Shown here: positions 41,034-50,886 of the stretch, in pieces
How the letters are laid out: each line of letters starts with the position of its first letter
Position numbering within the stretch: position 1 is the first letter of the stretch
Source of the DNA: Candidatus Poribacteria bacterium
GTDB taxonomy: Bacteria; Poribacteria; WGA-4E; WGA-3G
NCBI GenBank assembly: GCA_021295715.1
Contig: JAGWBV010000042.1
Location: forward strand, 1 to 53,152
Direction of reading: 5' to 3'
Length of the DNA: 53,152 nucleotides
Made by a program: the position numbers and the translations under genes
Notes under the pieces: generated by a model
Databases searched by the model: none
Told to the model about the DNA's origin: nothing
The model's input: the letters and a program-made list of their open reading frames with translations, nothing else

Positions 41034-44917
<3,884 letters not shown>

Positions 44918-45038: not shown

Positions 45039-46691
45039 TCAAAAAGGTATCTCTGTCATTCTCTCTTCTATAGAGATTTTGAGGCTGAAAGCGTTGCGGC
45101 TACCTTTCGCACTGTACGGACTCCCGGTAACGCACAAGCGAAACAACTTGCCTTCGTCAAAAGGGTAGGTGATCTTCCCCGTTTCTTCGGGACCGATATA
45201 CCATTCCATGGCGAGAGCTTCGAGAGCTTCCAAATAAACCTCGCCTTCTTGACGCTCCCAAACAGAAGTAGGTACGCCTTCAGGTGCTTTTTCTGTTGGG
45301 AGGTCTTTGTCACCATCAAACAGGTAGAAAGTTCCTGCTGCCTTACCTCTACCAACTCCGATATCCAGCGTAAGCGTGCCGCCGTTTTCAAACGCAGTGG
45401 TATCAATCTCTACGACGGTGTAGTCTTGATGGGGGATCATAGGTGTCTGAAAAGTGTCCAATATCTCCACTGAGGGACACTCACGGGGCAATACGATTTT
45501 ACCCAACCCAGGGCGTTTTCCTGATAAGGCTTCCGATAAAAATAGACGGTACCCCTCCGCTTCGGAGAGTCCTCTATCCCTGCTATCTCCGCGGAGCCGA
45601 TTGGCATCTTGTCTACCCATCAGTTTCAGTTCAGGCGAGATAACCAGAGAATCTATTGGCGAGTGTATCTCCCACCCACTTATAATAGTTTGTGCCAACG
45701 GGTGTGTTGTATCAACCGCTTTGAAACCGTCCTGGATCCTCTGGGCAAGGTAGGCGCGCTTGTTTGGTGTGCGTCCGAAGGCGACATTGGACACCCATGT
45801 ATTGATAAAATGTTCGTTCAAGAATTGGATGTTTTGTTCGTCGGAGAGAGCACCTGACCTCAGGGCTTTACCACTCCCTCAGCAAACCTCGTCTGCCAAG
45901 GGGCCATCTATAGAAATAACGTGGATCGGTTTCTGCTGTGCTTGTGCCAATTCCAACGCCGCCTCCATCGAGACCCAATCGATGTGCTCCGATTTGTAAA
46001 ACTGGCAGTTTAGCGCACGCTCGGCTTCCGCCTGTGTAATAGCGATAGAATCGCTCATTTCGCTGTCCAAACGGGTTATGGTGTCTTGCAGAATGTCTTC
46101 GGCACCAGCACGCAGTTCCATTTGCGCGCAAAAACCAGTATCCGCAATCCAGTTCGAGTCATCCCAACTCCTTTCGTCTTCCCAGCTGACCTGAAAGTTC
46201 ACAGGACCTTCTGGAACGCGCATCTGAAAGAACGAGACACTCTCTTTTGAACGGTTGATAATGAGGTGTCCCGTAAACTGTGAAGGCGTGAACCAGCCAT
46301 CGCCTAACTGAAATTCTGCATGAACGCGAAACACAATATCTGCGAATTTATCGGTGTAGGCACGTAAGCATGCCCACAACCCGGGATTCCCGTAACCGCG
46401 CATGTCCAAATATGGGGTCGAGTGAAGTTGTCGGAGCAGTTCAAGAGCACCCGCTTCTTTAATCTGCCATGGATTTCCAACCGACACCCCTTCGTCTGGA
46501 AGGAACGCGCGGAAAACGGATGCCGAATACGCCTTTTCTGGCGCAGCGACGCGGAGTTTCGCCAACTCGTCCCACTCATATTCCACGTGGTAGTTGGATT
46601 GAGTGTATTCAATCGGGGCGATGAAGCCTTTGATGGAAACTTTGGCATCACCATCAATATTAAGCGTAATTTTGTCGGGGGTTAGGTTCAT
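45039..46691 (-). CDS. Probable selenoprotein with a Cys-Sec thioredoxin-like motif (UGA read as Sec)
   Basis: Two minus-strand frames (46691-45879 and 45821-45039) are in the same phase and separated by one UGA (45881-45879). Read through, they give 550 residues with Cys270 and Sec271. The context is KPIHVISIDGPLADEVC, Sec, then GSGKALRSGALSDEQNIQFL and NEHFINTWV. This strand, redox pair, helix and FINTWV strand resemble thioredoxin-fold proteins. The 19 codons between the UGA and the next ATG are open and continue the pattern, so the second frame has no start of its own and no ribosome-binding site. Residues 1-230 form an unrecognised domain (GLWACLRAYTDKFADIVFRV, FTPSQFTGHLIINR). Residues 300-550 are also unassigned. 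An oxidoreductase role is inferred. A SECIS-like hairpin follows the UGA. Confidence 0.8.
45844..45881 (-). promoter_or_regulatory. SECIS-like hairpin following the in-frame UGA
   Basis: After the UGA (45881-45879), a lower stem GGGAG pairs with CUCUC (45878-45874 with 45848-45844). The upper stem GCCCUG pairs with CAGGUGC, with a bulged U. The loop AGGU (45860-45857) starts 18 bases after the UGA. Bacterial SECIS elements have a small upper stem, a bulged U and a loop with G near its start, 16-37 bases after the UGA. Here the bulged U is on the 3-prime side instead of the 5-prime side. The fold was done by eye. Confidence 0.6.
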
Positions 46692-46828: not shown

Positions 46829-48265
46829 TTAGAATATTCCAGCAATCGGTTCGCCTTTCACCAATTCACGTGGCTGATCCAAATGGTTGTACACGATGGT
46901 GTGTGGAGCGATACCGAGTGTATGGTAGACCGTGGCAAGGATATCTCGCGGATGCACTGGGTTCTCAAGCGGTGTTGAACCTGTTGCATCGGACTTCCCG
47001 TAGACCTGTCCACCTTTAACGCCAGCACCTGCAATCAGACCTGTGTAACAATAGGGCCAGTGATCGCGTCCATCAGGCGCGTTGCTGTTACCGGAGGTGC
47101 TAATACCCATCCGCGGCGAGCGTCCGAATTCACCGATCGCCAAGACGAGCGTGTCTTCCAACATACCGCGCTGATCCAAGTCTTCCAACAGTGAGGAGAC
47201 GGCACTGTCTAACTTCGGACAGTGAAGGTTTTTCAACGGACCAAAGTTCGTTGCGTGCGTATCCCATGCTGTGGTGTTCGGATCACCGTTAGCAACAGAG
47301 GGCCAGTTCACCTGCACGAAACGGGTGCCTGCTTCCACCAAACGGCGGGCGAGGAGTGCACTCTGTCCGAACGTGTGTCTACCGTACTTATCTCGCATCT
47401 CATCCGGTTCTTGGGACAAATCAAAGGCATTGCGTGCCCGCTGCGACAAGATCAGATTATACGCCTTCTCATAATACTCGTTCAAGGCGTAGGAGTCGGC
47501 AACCTTATCAATTTCCGGCATCCCTTTGTTAATCGTCTCAAGGAGATTTTTACGTCGTTTCAAACGCACCGGTGGCACCTCTGGGCGTAAACTCAGATCA
47601 TCGAGGTTAATCTCCTCATTTGGATCTTGGAAGAGAAAATACGGATCGTACGCTCTACCAAGGAAACCAGCGTTTCCACCTTTACCGATGATATTACTCT
47701 CCTGCATCGGACGCGGGAGTTGCACTGCAGCGAGCATCGGTTCATCGGGTGGACGATAGTTTGCGATATGCGATGCAGCATTCGGATGATCTGCTGGTGA
47801 CGGCGGATCGAGCTGTCCCGAAGGCGCAACCTTGTCCGGCGTTTCACCGGTTACCATTTGGTACATCGCAGCGGTGTGGTTGAAAAGTCCCGCCGGTGTA
47901 TAACTGACGGAGCGGATAAGGCAGGCTTTATCCATCTGTTGTGCCAAACGCGGCATCGTCTCAGATAACTGAATTCCCGGCACGTTGGTCGGAATCGGAC
48001 TAAATTCACCACGGATGTTCGAGGGGGCTTCCGGTTTCGGATCCCAAATGTCAAGGTGGCTTGGACCGCCCTGTAAGAAAAGAAGAATGACCGAGTTGGC
48101 TTTTCCCCATCCGTTGAGTGGCTTGGCGGGGTCAACTGTTGTATTCGCGTTGGCTTGGAGTGACAATACCTGTGGCAAACTAATGCCGAGCATCGCCGCA
48201 CCACCGACACGTAGAAATTCACGACGTGAGATTGTGGTAACGATAACATCTATTGTTTCCTCCAT
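46829..48265 (-). CDS. DUF1501 family secreted protein (Tat-type signal)
   Basis: A 478-residue member of DUF1501, an alkaline-phosphatase-superfamily-like family abundant in Planctomycetes. The N-terminal SRREFLRVGGAAMLGISLPQ is a Tat signal-like sequence. VILLFLQGGPSHLDIWDPKP is the family signature. FGEFGRSP-like AIGEFGRSPRMG and DHWPYCYTGLIAGAGVKGG complete the metal site pattern. The ATG at 48265 is chosen because the 13 codons upstream are R3 repeat sequence. In Planctomycetes these genes are paired with DUF1549/DUF1553 genes, as here. Function is unknown, perhaps sulfate ester or phosphoester hydrolysis outside the cytoplasm. Confidence 0.88.
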   Translation of the reverse strand: MEETIDVIVTTISRREFLRVGGAAMLGISLPQVLSLQANANTTVDPAKPLNGWGKANSVILLFLQGGPSHLDIWDPKPEAPSNIRGEFSPIPTNVPGIQLSETMPRLAQQMDKACLIRSVSYTPAGLFNHTAAMYQMVTGETPDKVAPSGQLDPPSPADHPNAASHIANYRPPDEPMLAAVQLPRPMQESNIIGKGGNAGFLGRAYDPYFLFQDPNEEINLDDLSLRPEVPPVRLKRRKNLLETINKGMPEIDKVADSYALNEYYEKAYNLILSQRARNAFDLSQEPDEMRDKYGRHTFGQSALLARRLVEAGTRFVQVNWPSVANGDPNTTAWDTHATNFGPLKNLHCPKLDSAVSSLLEDLDQRGMLEDTLVLAIGEFGRSPRMGISTSGNSNAPDGRDHWPYCYTGLIAGAGVKGGQVYGKSDATGSTPLENPVHPRDILATVYHTLGIAPHTIVYNHLDQPRELVKGEPIAGIF

Positions 48266-48269
48266 TGGA

Positions 48270-48354
48270 ATGGCTGTCAGCCATCGGCAGTTAGCAGTCA
48301 GCAAGTCTCTGGTTTTTAGACAGCTAATAGCCGATGCCGAAGGCTGATGGCTAT
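48270..48354. repeat. R3-family repeat between DUF1501 and DUF1549 genes
   Basis: GGCTGTCAGCCATCGGCAGT, TAGCAGTCAGCAAGTCTCTG and AGACAGCTAATAGCCGATGC with GAAGGCTGATGGC form an imperfect palindrome filling the whole gap. Confidence 0.7.
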
Positions 48355-50829
48355 TTAACGATTGAATAAGAAGGCAGGACTGTTAATGAGTGCCCACAAC
48401 AAGTCTTGCGCACCTTCTTCCTTAGATTCGGCGTTCCCAAGGTGTTCAATCGCTATTGCATATTCGTTTTTCTCTGGTAACCGAGAAAGCGTTGCGAGAT
48501 AGAGTTCCTCGACGAGAACTCGGTCATCATGATTCGTTTTGATGAGTTGTGCAATACGTCCTTCTGGATCAATGAGGGACTCTGCAACCGTCGGTCCATT
48601 AATAAGGTTCATTGCGTGTGCGAGGCTGACCTCGGTGGTCCGTTCACATTCACACGAAGTTTCGCGCTCAGGTCTGCCAAACAACTTCAAGAATCCGTCA
48701 TCTTTGACTTTGCTGTCTGGCAACTGCACCGCACGGAATTTTTTCGGCATCTCTTCAAACCGGGGTCGGCTGCCTGTCGCGATGCCGATGGCATCTAATA
48801 ACTGTTCTGCCGTCAAGCGTCTCGCAGCTGCGTGTGAAAAGTTAATCGTATCAGCCTTGTTCCACTTATTCGTTGTGATGCTCTGCTGGTAGGTTCGGGA
48901 ACGTGTGATTGTCTTCATGATATGTTTCATGTCAAATCCACTGTCCACGAAGTCCTTTGTCAAAGCATCGAGCAATTCTGGGTTCGTCGGTGGATTACTT
49001 GTGCGAATATCGTCTACAGGTTCGATAATTCCACGTCCCATGAAGTAACTCCAAATGCGGTTCACACCTGCCCGGGCAAACATTGGATTCTCTTCGGAGG
49101 TGAGCCACGCTGCGAGCATTTCGCGTTTATCGCCGGTTTCCGCTGCAACTTCTCCGAACGGGACTGACGGTTCAACCACCGCTAACGTTCGCGGATGTTT
49201 CACAGGTTCAGGGGTATAATTAGCATAGACGACCTCATCGCCGGGGAGTTGTCCTGGTTTGACCTTGACATCCGCGAAGAACGCACCGAATTCGTAGTAC
49301 TGGTTCTGTGTCCATTTTTCAAACGGATGGTCGTGACATTTGTTGCAGGAAAACCGGACACCTAAGAAAAGTTGCGTCGTATTTTCCACCGCAGCCGTGT
49401 ATTCACGCGAGACGCGGAAATAGTTCGCTGCCGGATTCGTGTAGGTGCTACCGGTTGCCGTAATCAGATCTCGTACAAACTCGTCATACGGACGGTTCTC
49501 GGCTATGGCTTGATGGATCCACTCTTGGAAGAGCCAGATCCCACGCTCACCGAGAAATTTACGGTTAGACTGCAACAGATCGCCCCATTTATGCGTCCAG
49601 TGATCAATAAACTCCGTTGTTTCGGCGAGAGTATCAATGAGTTTTTCCCGTTTGGCTTTAGAGGGTGTGGTATCGGTTAAGAAGCTCCGCACCTGTGCTG
49701 GAGTCGGTGGGAGACCTGTCAGGTCGAAATAGACGCGCCGTACAAACTCTTCATCTGTGCAGAGTTCAGAAGGTAGGATTTTCATCCGCTTCAGTTTGTT
49801 GTGAACATACGTATCAATATAGTTGTATTCGGGCGTTTTAACCCATTTGTAACCGCTCCTGTCCCCCATAACGATGATGCCGTTCGTGCTATAGGCACCT
49901 TCGTATCGGGTGAGGATGGCCGTTTCGCCACGGCGTTCTGCGGTTACCACGCCGTTGTCTGTGACCTTTGCCACCTCATTGAGACTACTTGTGAACTTCG
50001 CTTCACGGGTGACATCCCGCGTTGTGCCGTCGGGATAGTGGGCGATCACTATAAGCTGCTGCTTCATACCCGGCATCGTGAGTTCAGCCGCATCTGGTAT
50101 GACCTCCAATCTTTCGACACGTTTTGTGGTGTGAACGTCAGGAGTAGCCCCTTCCGCTATCCATTGACGGATAATTTCATAATCTCGATCCCCTGGAACA
50201 ATTACCTGTCCGCCTTTATGCGGCACCTCCGATGTCGGTTTGAGCAACATCAGACTCTGTTCGGGAAATGCTCGGTTAAACCGCCGTCCGGATATGTCCT
50301 CGATTAAGAGTTCATAGTCGAAATCGGGGTCGTAGCCGCGGAGTGAGAGTTTGAACCCATTTTTGCCCTTTGCTGCACCGTGACATGTGCCGTTATTGCA
50401 TCCAGCATGGCTCAGAAGAGGCATGACATCTCGCACGAAACTGACGGGTGGTGCTTCCATGCTTTTAACGTTCACGGGCAATGCGGTGCTGGCACCTTTG
50501 ACAGTCACCGTAATTTTTGTTGTGCCAACCATCATGGGGAAGATATAACCGTCTTCATATACCTTCACCGCTGCGGTGGCGGGCGTTAGTGTAGCATAAG
50601 GTGTTACATCTACCCATGTGCCACTTTTCGTCTTTCCTGACACAAGCACCCGTCTACCGTCGCGAGCATGCTCCAATGTCAGTGACTCAGGATGAACTTT
50701 CAACGCTTGCACCGTCGGAACTTCGGCACTCACAGGCTGCTCCATCTCGCTCGCTGCTGTCAGTTGGAACGCGAGACAGATAGAGAATGCAACAAGGAAT
50801 GTTGTTACAATGTTAGACCTGGGTTTCAT
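48355..50829 (-). CDS. DUF1549/DUF1553 protein with cytochrome-c-like domain (PSCyt/PSD type)
   Basis: An 824-residue exported protein. Signal peptide KPRSNIVTTFLVAFSICLAF with cleavage near AASE. A BIG2-like Ig domain covers about residues 40-120. A Planctomycete cytochrome-c-like domain carries CNNGTCHGAAKGKNGFKLSL (CxxxxCH, near residue 145) and a further BIG2-like repeat follows. DUF1549 begins near 325 (DLTGLPPTPAQVRSFLTD) and includes FSCNKCHDHPFEKW, a CxxCH heme motif. DUF1553 covers the C-terminal third (NRIWSYFMGRGIIEPVDDIR, then RTYQQSITTNKWN). It works with the downstream DUF1501 protein, probably in an extracytoplasmic process. The ATG at 50829 is preferred to the TTG before it. 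Confidence 0.9.
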   Translation of the reverse strand: MKPRSNIVTTFLVAFSICLAFQLTAASEMEQPVSAEVPTVQALKVHPESLTLEHARDGRRVLVSGKTKSGTWVDVTPYATLTPATAAVKVYEDGYIFPMMVGTTKITVTVKGASTALPVNVKSMEAPPVSFVRDVMPLLSHAGCNNGTCHGAAKGKNGFKLSLRGYDPDFDYELLIEDISGRRFNRAFPEQSLMLLKPTSEVPHKGGQVIVPGDRDYEIIRQWIAEGATPDVHTTKRVERLEVIPDAAELTMPGMKQQLIVIAHYPDGTTRDVTREAKFTSSLNEVAKVTDNGVVTAERRGETAILTRYEGAYSTNGIIVMGDRSGYKWVKTPEYNYIDTYVHNKLKRMKILPSELCTDEEFVRRVYFDLTGLPPTPAQVRSFLTDTTPSKAKREKLIDTLAETTEFIDHWTHKWGDLLQSNRKFLGERGIWLFQEWIHQAIAENRPYDEFVRDLITATGSTYTNPAANYFRVSREYTAAVENTTQLFLGVRFSCNKCHDHPFEKWTQNQYYEFGAFFADVKVKPGQLPGDEVVYANYTPEPVKHPRTLAVVEPSVPFGEVAAETGDKREMLAAWLTSEENPMFARAGVNRIWSYFMGRGIIEPVDDIRTSNPPTNPELLDALTKDFVDSGFDMKHIMKTITRSRTYQQSITTNKWNKADTINFSHAAARRLTAEQLLDAIGIATGSRPRFEEMPKKFRAVQLPDSKVKDDGFLKLFGRPERETSCECERTTEVSLAHAMNLINGPTVAESLIDPEGRIAQLIKTNHDDRVLVEELYLATLSRLPEKNEYAIAIEHLGNAESKEEGAQDLLWALINSPAFLFNR

Positions 50830-50886
50830 CAAAAAACTCGGCGTGGGACCCCCGACTATGATCGGCGGAGGAAACGCCGTCCTCCT

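Follow-up and report, generated by a model that had tools for sequence, protein, structure and literature searches.

Gene organization at the locus

On the minus strand of the window (the whole stretch of 53,152 nucleotides that was analysed), the frame running from 46691 to 45039 consists of 270 residues, a TGA at 45881-45879, 279 further residues and a terminal TGA, with no further stop. The first-pass annotation had read this arrangement as one gene split by an in-frame UGA, and this reading is borne out by homologues that align continuously across the codon. Table 1 lists the features of this gene, named SELENON-like here for the homology described below, together with those of its neighbours. 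The annotation had also given the second frame a nominal ATG start, which is wrong, the codon at 45821 in the window sequence being TTG. Its remark that this frame has no ribosome-binding site stands in that none convincing was found upstream of 45821, though the real start at 46691 likewise lacks one. TGA is an ordinary stop codon in the window, where it terminates five of the 37 main ORFs, the SELENON-like gene included. Since it also ends other genes here, recoding is site-specific and the genetic code is not reassigned.

The gene order PSD1-DUF1501-SELENON-like gene-PPC/TIG-Tgt is conserved in four relatives. No clue to a substrate or partner came from these neighbours (DUF1501, PSD1, PPC, Tgt), nor from the leuD, HAD and IMPDH genes found near tandem arrays of the family. 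The downstream neighbour has a PPC domain, a fold that the C-terminal extension of the selenoprotein also resembles.

Table 1. Features of the SELENON-like gene and its surroundings, in window coordinates.
Feature	Position	Strand	Basis or remark
SELENON-like gene, whole	45039..46691	(-)	550 codons, with codon 271 for Sec and the TGA stop at 45041-45039; homologues align end to end
N-terminal beta-rich domain, residues 1-234	45990..46691	(-)	Homologous to about residues 150-445 of SELENON; 86 bits with residues 1-440 of the uncurated human sequence; secondary structure of the model
Thioredoxin-like Sec domain, residues 235-392	45516..45989	(-)	Predicted fold matches DsbH, ERp19 and AGR3
C-terminal beta-sandwich extension, residues 395-545	45057..45509	(-)	Missing from short members and from human SELENON
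Cys270, vicinal partner of Sec in the SCUG-type motif	45882..45884	(-)	Invariant alignment column
Codon 271, UGA read as Sec	45879..45881	(-)	TGA in homologues; aligns with Sec462 of SELENON
Bacterial-type SECIS, overlapping and directly downstream of the UGA, apical loop AGGU	45844..45881	(-)	Alignment, folds and synonymous constraint
DUF1501 protein, upstream neighbour	46829..48304	(-)	Order conserved in L009, L010, L013 and L015
PSD1/PSCyt2 (DUF1553/DUF1549) protein, upstream neighbour	48355..50832	(-)	Order conserved
PPC and TIG domain protein, downstream neighbour	42323..44917	(-)	Order conserved

Conservation of the UGA codon in the Poribacteria family

Alignment of the long copies of the family, which extend down to about 45% identity, revealed TGA at the codon corresponding to residue 271 in 38 of 39 cases, the window included. 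The remaining copy, from the window's own genome (G000), has GGA. In a second set with members to about 30% identity, all 98 aligned domains have TGA. Homologues aligned across residue 271 thus carry U in nearly all cases, with one Gly form and no Cys form. As no Cys-containing homologue was found at this position among family members, the argument usually drawn from Sec/Cys pairs is missing. The motif throughout the family is [DE]-x-C-U-[GA]-x-G-[KR], with VCUG in the window and SCUG or ACUG in most copies. The position three residues after Sec is an invariant Gly (U-G-S-G), and the resolving Cys of UxxC motifs is absent. The conservation of the UGA and of the invariant Cys270 supports the earlier proposal of a selenoprotein with a vicinal Cys-Sec pair.

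A phylum-wide profile search detected the family in 65 of 85 Poribacteria genomes, with up to 18 matches per genome, and in families f1, f2 and f4 of one order. Nearly all of the approximately 150 phylum matches listed contain exactly one in-frame TGA. Searching a contig set of 84,980 species with near-exact peptide seeds, an approach by which distant relatives could be missed, returned relatives of the joined protein in Candidatus Poribacteria only. Many copies are arranged head to tail in runs of up to five, with 1-8 bases between neighbours or an overlap. At L017, L020, L021, L022 and L023, tandem arrays contain up to five SELENON-like genes whose stops and starts overlap; some tandem-array copies have a duplicated C-terminal domain, and several arrays adjoin leuD, HAD hydrolase or IMP dehydrogenase genes.

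The two sides of the UGA evolve under similar selection. Relative to the closest orthologue (L009), dN/dS is 0.21 upstream of the codon and 0.24 downstream, and relative to other orthologues it ranges from 0.17 to 0.28 on both sides. Downstream of the UGA, the branch that leads to the window accumulated 8 nonsynonymous and 16 synonymous changes. From this purifying selection, the part downstream of the UGA is most likely translated and under selection. The interrupted frame might alternatively be two separate genes, a pseudogene or a sequencing error, in favour of which stands the TTG start at 45821 in the second frame. However, this TTG is embedded in a helix-strand segment that is conserved, the UGA is neither the start nor the end of any full-length homologue, and the dN/dS values are low on both sides. 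Moreover, the same arrangement is present in independent assemblies, including single-contig genomes, across most of the phylum. We therefore consider these explanations to be refuted by the conservation pattern, with a probability close to nil.

A bacterial-type SECIS element follows the UGA

When the 50 bases starting at the UGA are aligned, columns 20-35 contain an invariant UGAG..CA..UG..CU. Most copies fold in this region as GAGGGC[AGGU]GUCCUC, a 6-bp stem closed by a loop of 4 nt with G at its second position, located 23 nt after the UGA and with a folding energy of about -8.9 kcal/mol. In the window and its closest orthologues the hairpin is CCUG[AGGU]CAGG, located at 18 nt with -7.5 kcal/mol, inside a longer stem that includes the UGA bases. 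Judged by the published bSECIS rules (PMC13188914), the hairpins conform to them.

Constraint on synonymous sites points to the same region. The synonymous information, with the amino acids accounted for, reaches its gene-wide maximum in stretches of 12 codons starting at codons 270-273, with 1.47 bits for the stretch from codon 272 versus a gene mean of 0.65 bits. Arg278 is encoded by AGG or AGA in 38 of 38 copies, and Leu282 by CTC in 36 of 38. Covariation in the SECIS stem was tested for two structures, and neither exceeds the column-shuffle control.

Selenocysteine machinery of the genome

The first-pass annotation had supposed that the organism encodes SelA, SelB, SelC and SelD. The genome of the window is a MAG with a completeness of 96%, in which selB is found on contig C54 (29721-31616) with a score of 350 bits, over the cut-off. 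The selD gene (G000:C29:59245-60168, L051) itself encodes a selenoprotein, with a UGA in VKCAGU (CAGU motif). The selB gene is directly followed by a tRNA-Sec that has a UCA anticodon and a long variable arm (C54:31679-31752, corresponding to L049:9680-9753) and ends after GGTGGGTTCG; the 3' T-stem and the acceptor are missing, and the remainder is joined to the start of lipA. This selC-lipA junction is about 190 bases shorter than the same site in relatives, where the tRNA-Sec is intact, and no second or intact copy was found elsewhere in the G000 assembly. No selA was found in this assembly either. In the related genome G010, addA follows the gene block that bears selA; because contig C150 of G000 starts with addA at its base 1, selA of the window's genome falls in an assembly gap. 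Over a set of 30 genomes, tRNA-Sec scores above the cut-off in 28 and selA is present in 27. The supposition of a complete SelA/B/C/D set is thus confirmed for relatives and, in the window's own assembly, for the intact selB and selD, but not for the cut tRNA-Sec or for the absent selA, whose locus falls where a contig ends.

The truncated tRNA-Sec is probably a local assembly fault, the main rival being a recent loss. Under such a loss, the SELENON-like selenoprotein would be real, but Sec decoding would have just disappeared from the window's lineage and the gene would now yield a 270-residue fragment. Besides the missing selC 3' end within contig C54 and the missing selA, two paralogues in the same genome would fit this scenario. 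In one of them (G000:C115:4169-5782, L008, L162) the Sec codon is GGA (Gly), with the SECIS-like sequence after the codon retained, whereas its G010 orthologue, 85% identical, keeps the UGA. The other, at C70, is broken into pieces. We nevertheless regard the loss as unlikely: the selA locus coincides with a contig end, selB and a Sec-type selD are retained in this nearly complete MAG, purifying selection still acts along the G000 branch on the part of the gene after the UGA, and a metagenome contig may plausibly be misassembled locally within a tRNA gene.

The incomplete tRNA-Sec would also be compatible with UGA 271 being read by near-cognate readthrough or by a Cys or Trp suppressor tRNA, giving an ordinary protein. 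This is highly improbable. The SECIS-like synonymous constraint and the Sec machinery found across the phylum favour Sec at 271, and the same is true of the second UGA selenoprotein in the genome (SelD), the alignment of the codon with Sec462 of SELENON, and the use of UGA to end other genes here.

Predicted structure and domain organization

The AlphaFold2 model generated on the family alignment has a mean pLDDT of 83. Comparison of residues 235-392 of the model with known structures gives matches to DsbH (Z 12.6), ERp19 (Z 11.2) and AGR3 (Z 10.8), supporting the thioredoxin-like fold that had been suggested around the Sec residue. Residues 395-545 resemble PPC, GOLD and collagen-binding beta-sandwiches, with Z-scores of 9-10.8, and this C-terminal extension is found free-standing or doubled elsewhere. 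At the sequence level, searches of Pfam, NCBIfam and the PDB with the joined protein, the family profiles and the Sec domain alone returned no significant match. Weak matches to Pfam Thioredox_DsbH (PF03190) were obtained for 3 of 38 members, with a best E of 0.016.

Homology to Selenoprotein N

Divergent members of the family carry the motif LLWGALDDESCU..GK. Because this motif suggested Selenoprotein N, we compared the family with human SELENON, using an uncurated query of 590 residues that had been verified at positions given in publications. This query agrees with residues R5, Q8, R27, H52, S78, R291, H389, Sec462 and R466 of PMC8967691 and, in short-isoform numbering, with the glycosylation sites N156, N449, N471 and N497 of PMC10650576. 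It possibly agrees with N204 of PMC8584023, which fits only if short-isoform numbering applies.

Against this query the family profile scores 161.9 bits (E 6e-46 at 500,000 sequences, with no shuffled sequence listed), and residues 1-440 of the query alone, which precede the Sec domain, still score 86 bits. BLASTP aligns the window protein with the query over 298 positions at 30% identity (E 9e-33); divergent members reach up to 31% over 355. Residues 49-299 of the window protein are involved in the match, in which U271 aligns with Sec462. The window protein shares R291, H293, G315, N340, Sec462 and R469 with the human sequence, while R466 is replaced by Lys; human W453 is present in the divergent members L140 and L156. 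We take H293, N340, W453 and R469 to be positions of SELENON disease changes. R291Q, Sec462R and R466Q/W are mutations of SELENON patients (PMC8967691), and c.943G>A, in codon 315, is a disease change as well (PMC12839072). Judged from these sequence comparisons, the Poribacteria family is clearly homologous to animal Selenoprotein N.

When placed in a tree of the family, human SELENON joins the divergent clade; with a single eukaryotic sequence on a long branch, neither the root nor the direction of transfer is fixed. SELENON has also been reported from some algae (PMC7539508). That both groups share descent through a gene passed between bacterial sponge symbionts and early animals (or other eukaryotes) is a tentative suggestion, to which we give rather less than even odds. 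If it were true, eukaryotes would have added the membrane anchor and the EF-hand later to a cytosolic Cys-Sec oxidoreductase of bacteria.

The family had initially been taken as possibly undescribed, with domains that were not recognised. Indeed, neither Pfam nor NCBIfam contains it, and an inventory from 2026, which covers 119 families of prokaryotic selenoproteins, has no SELENON-like entry (PMC13188914). The domains, in contrast, can be assigned, as homology to SELENON covers the N-terminal and the Sec domain and the C-terminal extension is a PPC/GOLD-like beta-sandwich. An incomplete literature search found no report linking Poribacteria to selenoproteins or naming a bacterial SelN. A SelN homologue in Poribacteria may already have been noted by SELENON specialists. 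Because standard gene calling stops at the UGA, each member of the family probably appears in annotations as two truncated hypothetical proteins.

Proposed function of the SELENON-like protein

Taken together, the conservation of the UGA, the SECIS, most of the decoding machinery, the homology to SELENON and the predicted fold support a bacterial Selenoprotein-N-like selenoprotein at this locus. Here UGA 271 would be decoded as Sec to give one cytosolic Cys-Sec protein of 550 residues, a reading to which we assign a probability of about 0.92. The SECIS hairpin overlapping and following codon 271 would recruit SelB and Sec-tRNA, allowing the UGA to be decoded and a single polypeptide to be made. 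Sec would then be positioned at the mouth of the thioredoxin-like domain, in the motif C-U-G-S-G-K. In the register of the thioredoxin motif W-C-G-x-C-K, Sec would replace the nucleophilic N-terminal Cys and Gly the resolving Cys, with a Cys as the preceding residue. This comparison of C-U-G-S-G-K-x-L-R with W-C-G-x-C-K draws on the sequence register and on the position of strand 256-261 and helix 275 in the model.

By analogy with thioredoxin reductase (GCUG) and SELENON (SCUG), a vicinal selenenylsulfide is expected to be the redox centre, and the enzyme may cycle between this Cys-Sec selenenylsulfide and its reduced form. It could reduce protein targets held by the N-terminal or C-terminal beta domains, or exchange thiols with them. 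The redox chemistry, the cellular target and the cytosolic location are those that we infer for the protein.

Mutations in SELENON cause congenital myopathy, and the bacterial family matched no solved structure by sequence. Soluble bacterial homologues that lack anchor and EF-hand strip the protein down to its catalytic core, which makes them candidates for crystallisation and assays. In sponge-associated Poribacteria, an animal selenoprotein that is poorly understood thus has simple relatives open to study, and bacteria gain a large, tandemly expanded selenoprotein group that reaches 18 matches in genomes of approximately 6 Mb.

Comparison with known systems

With the known bacterial selenoprotein families (PMC13188914), the SELENON-like family has in common the in-frame UGA, the SECIS immediately downstream and a thioredoxin-like fold, which is common among them. 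It differs from the thioredoxin selenoproteins with a UxxC motif in the Gly that replaces the resolving Cys. The predicted fold of residues 235-392 relates it to Thioredox_DsbH, ERp19 (TXNDC12) and AGR, whereas their CxxC becomes C-U-x-x-G in the family and additional N- and C-terminal domains are present here. As in the C-terminal GCUG of thioredoxin reductase, a vicinal Cys-Sec pair is followed by Gly and a selenenylsulfide is expected. However, the SELENON-like protein has no flavin/NADPH domain, and its pair is located in the thioredoxin-like domain instead of at the C-terminus.

The closest likeness is to SELENON itself, with which the family shares colinear N-terminal and thioredoxin-like domains and a Cys before Sec in a SCUG-type motif. 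The short bacterial forms, of 360-374 residues, end where the human protein ends. In contrast to SELENON, the bacterial proteins lack the transmembrane (type II) anchor and begin after it. No strongly hydrophobic segment was found in the bacterial family, where the top 19-residue hydropathy is 1.39 versus 2.17 for the human N-terminus. The bacterial family is also not located in the ER, and its SECIS is in frame, compared to the 3'UTR SECIS of SELENON. Many bacterial copies add a C-terminal beta-sandwich, which extends the window type by about 150 residues, and the tandem arrays of up to five copies, with as many as 18 matches per genome, further set the bacterial genes apart. The human EF-hand region aligns with no bacterial residue; because this calcium sensor is absent, we class the Poribacteria family as a SELENON-like homologue rather than as SELENON proper.
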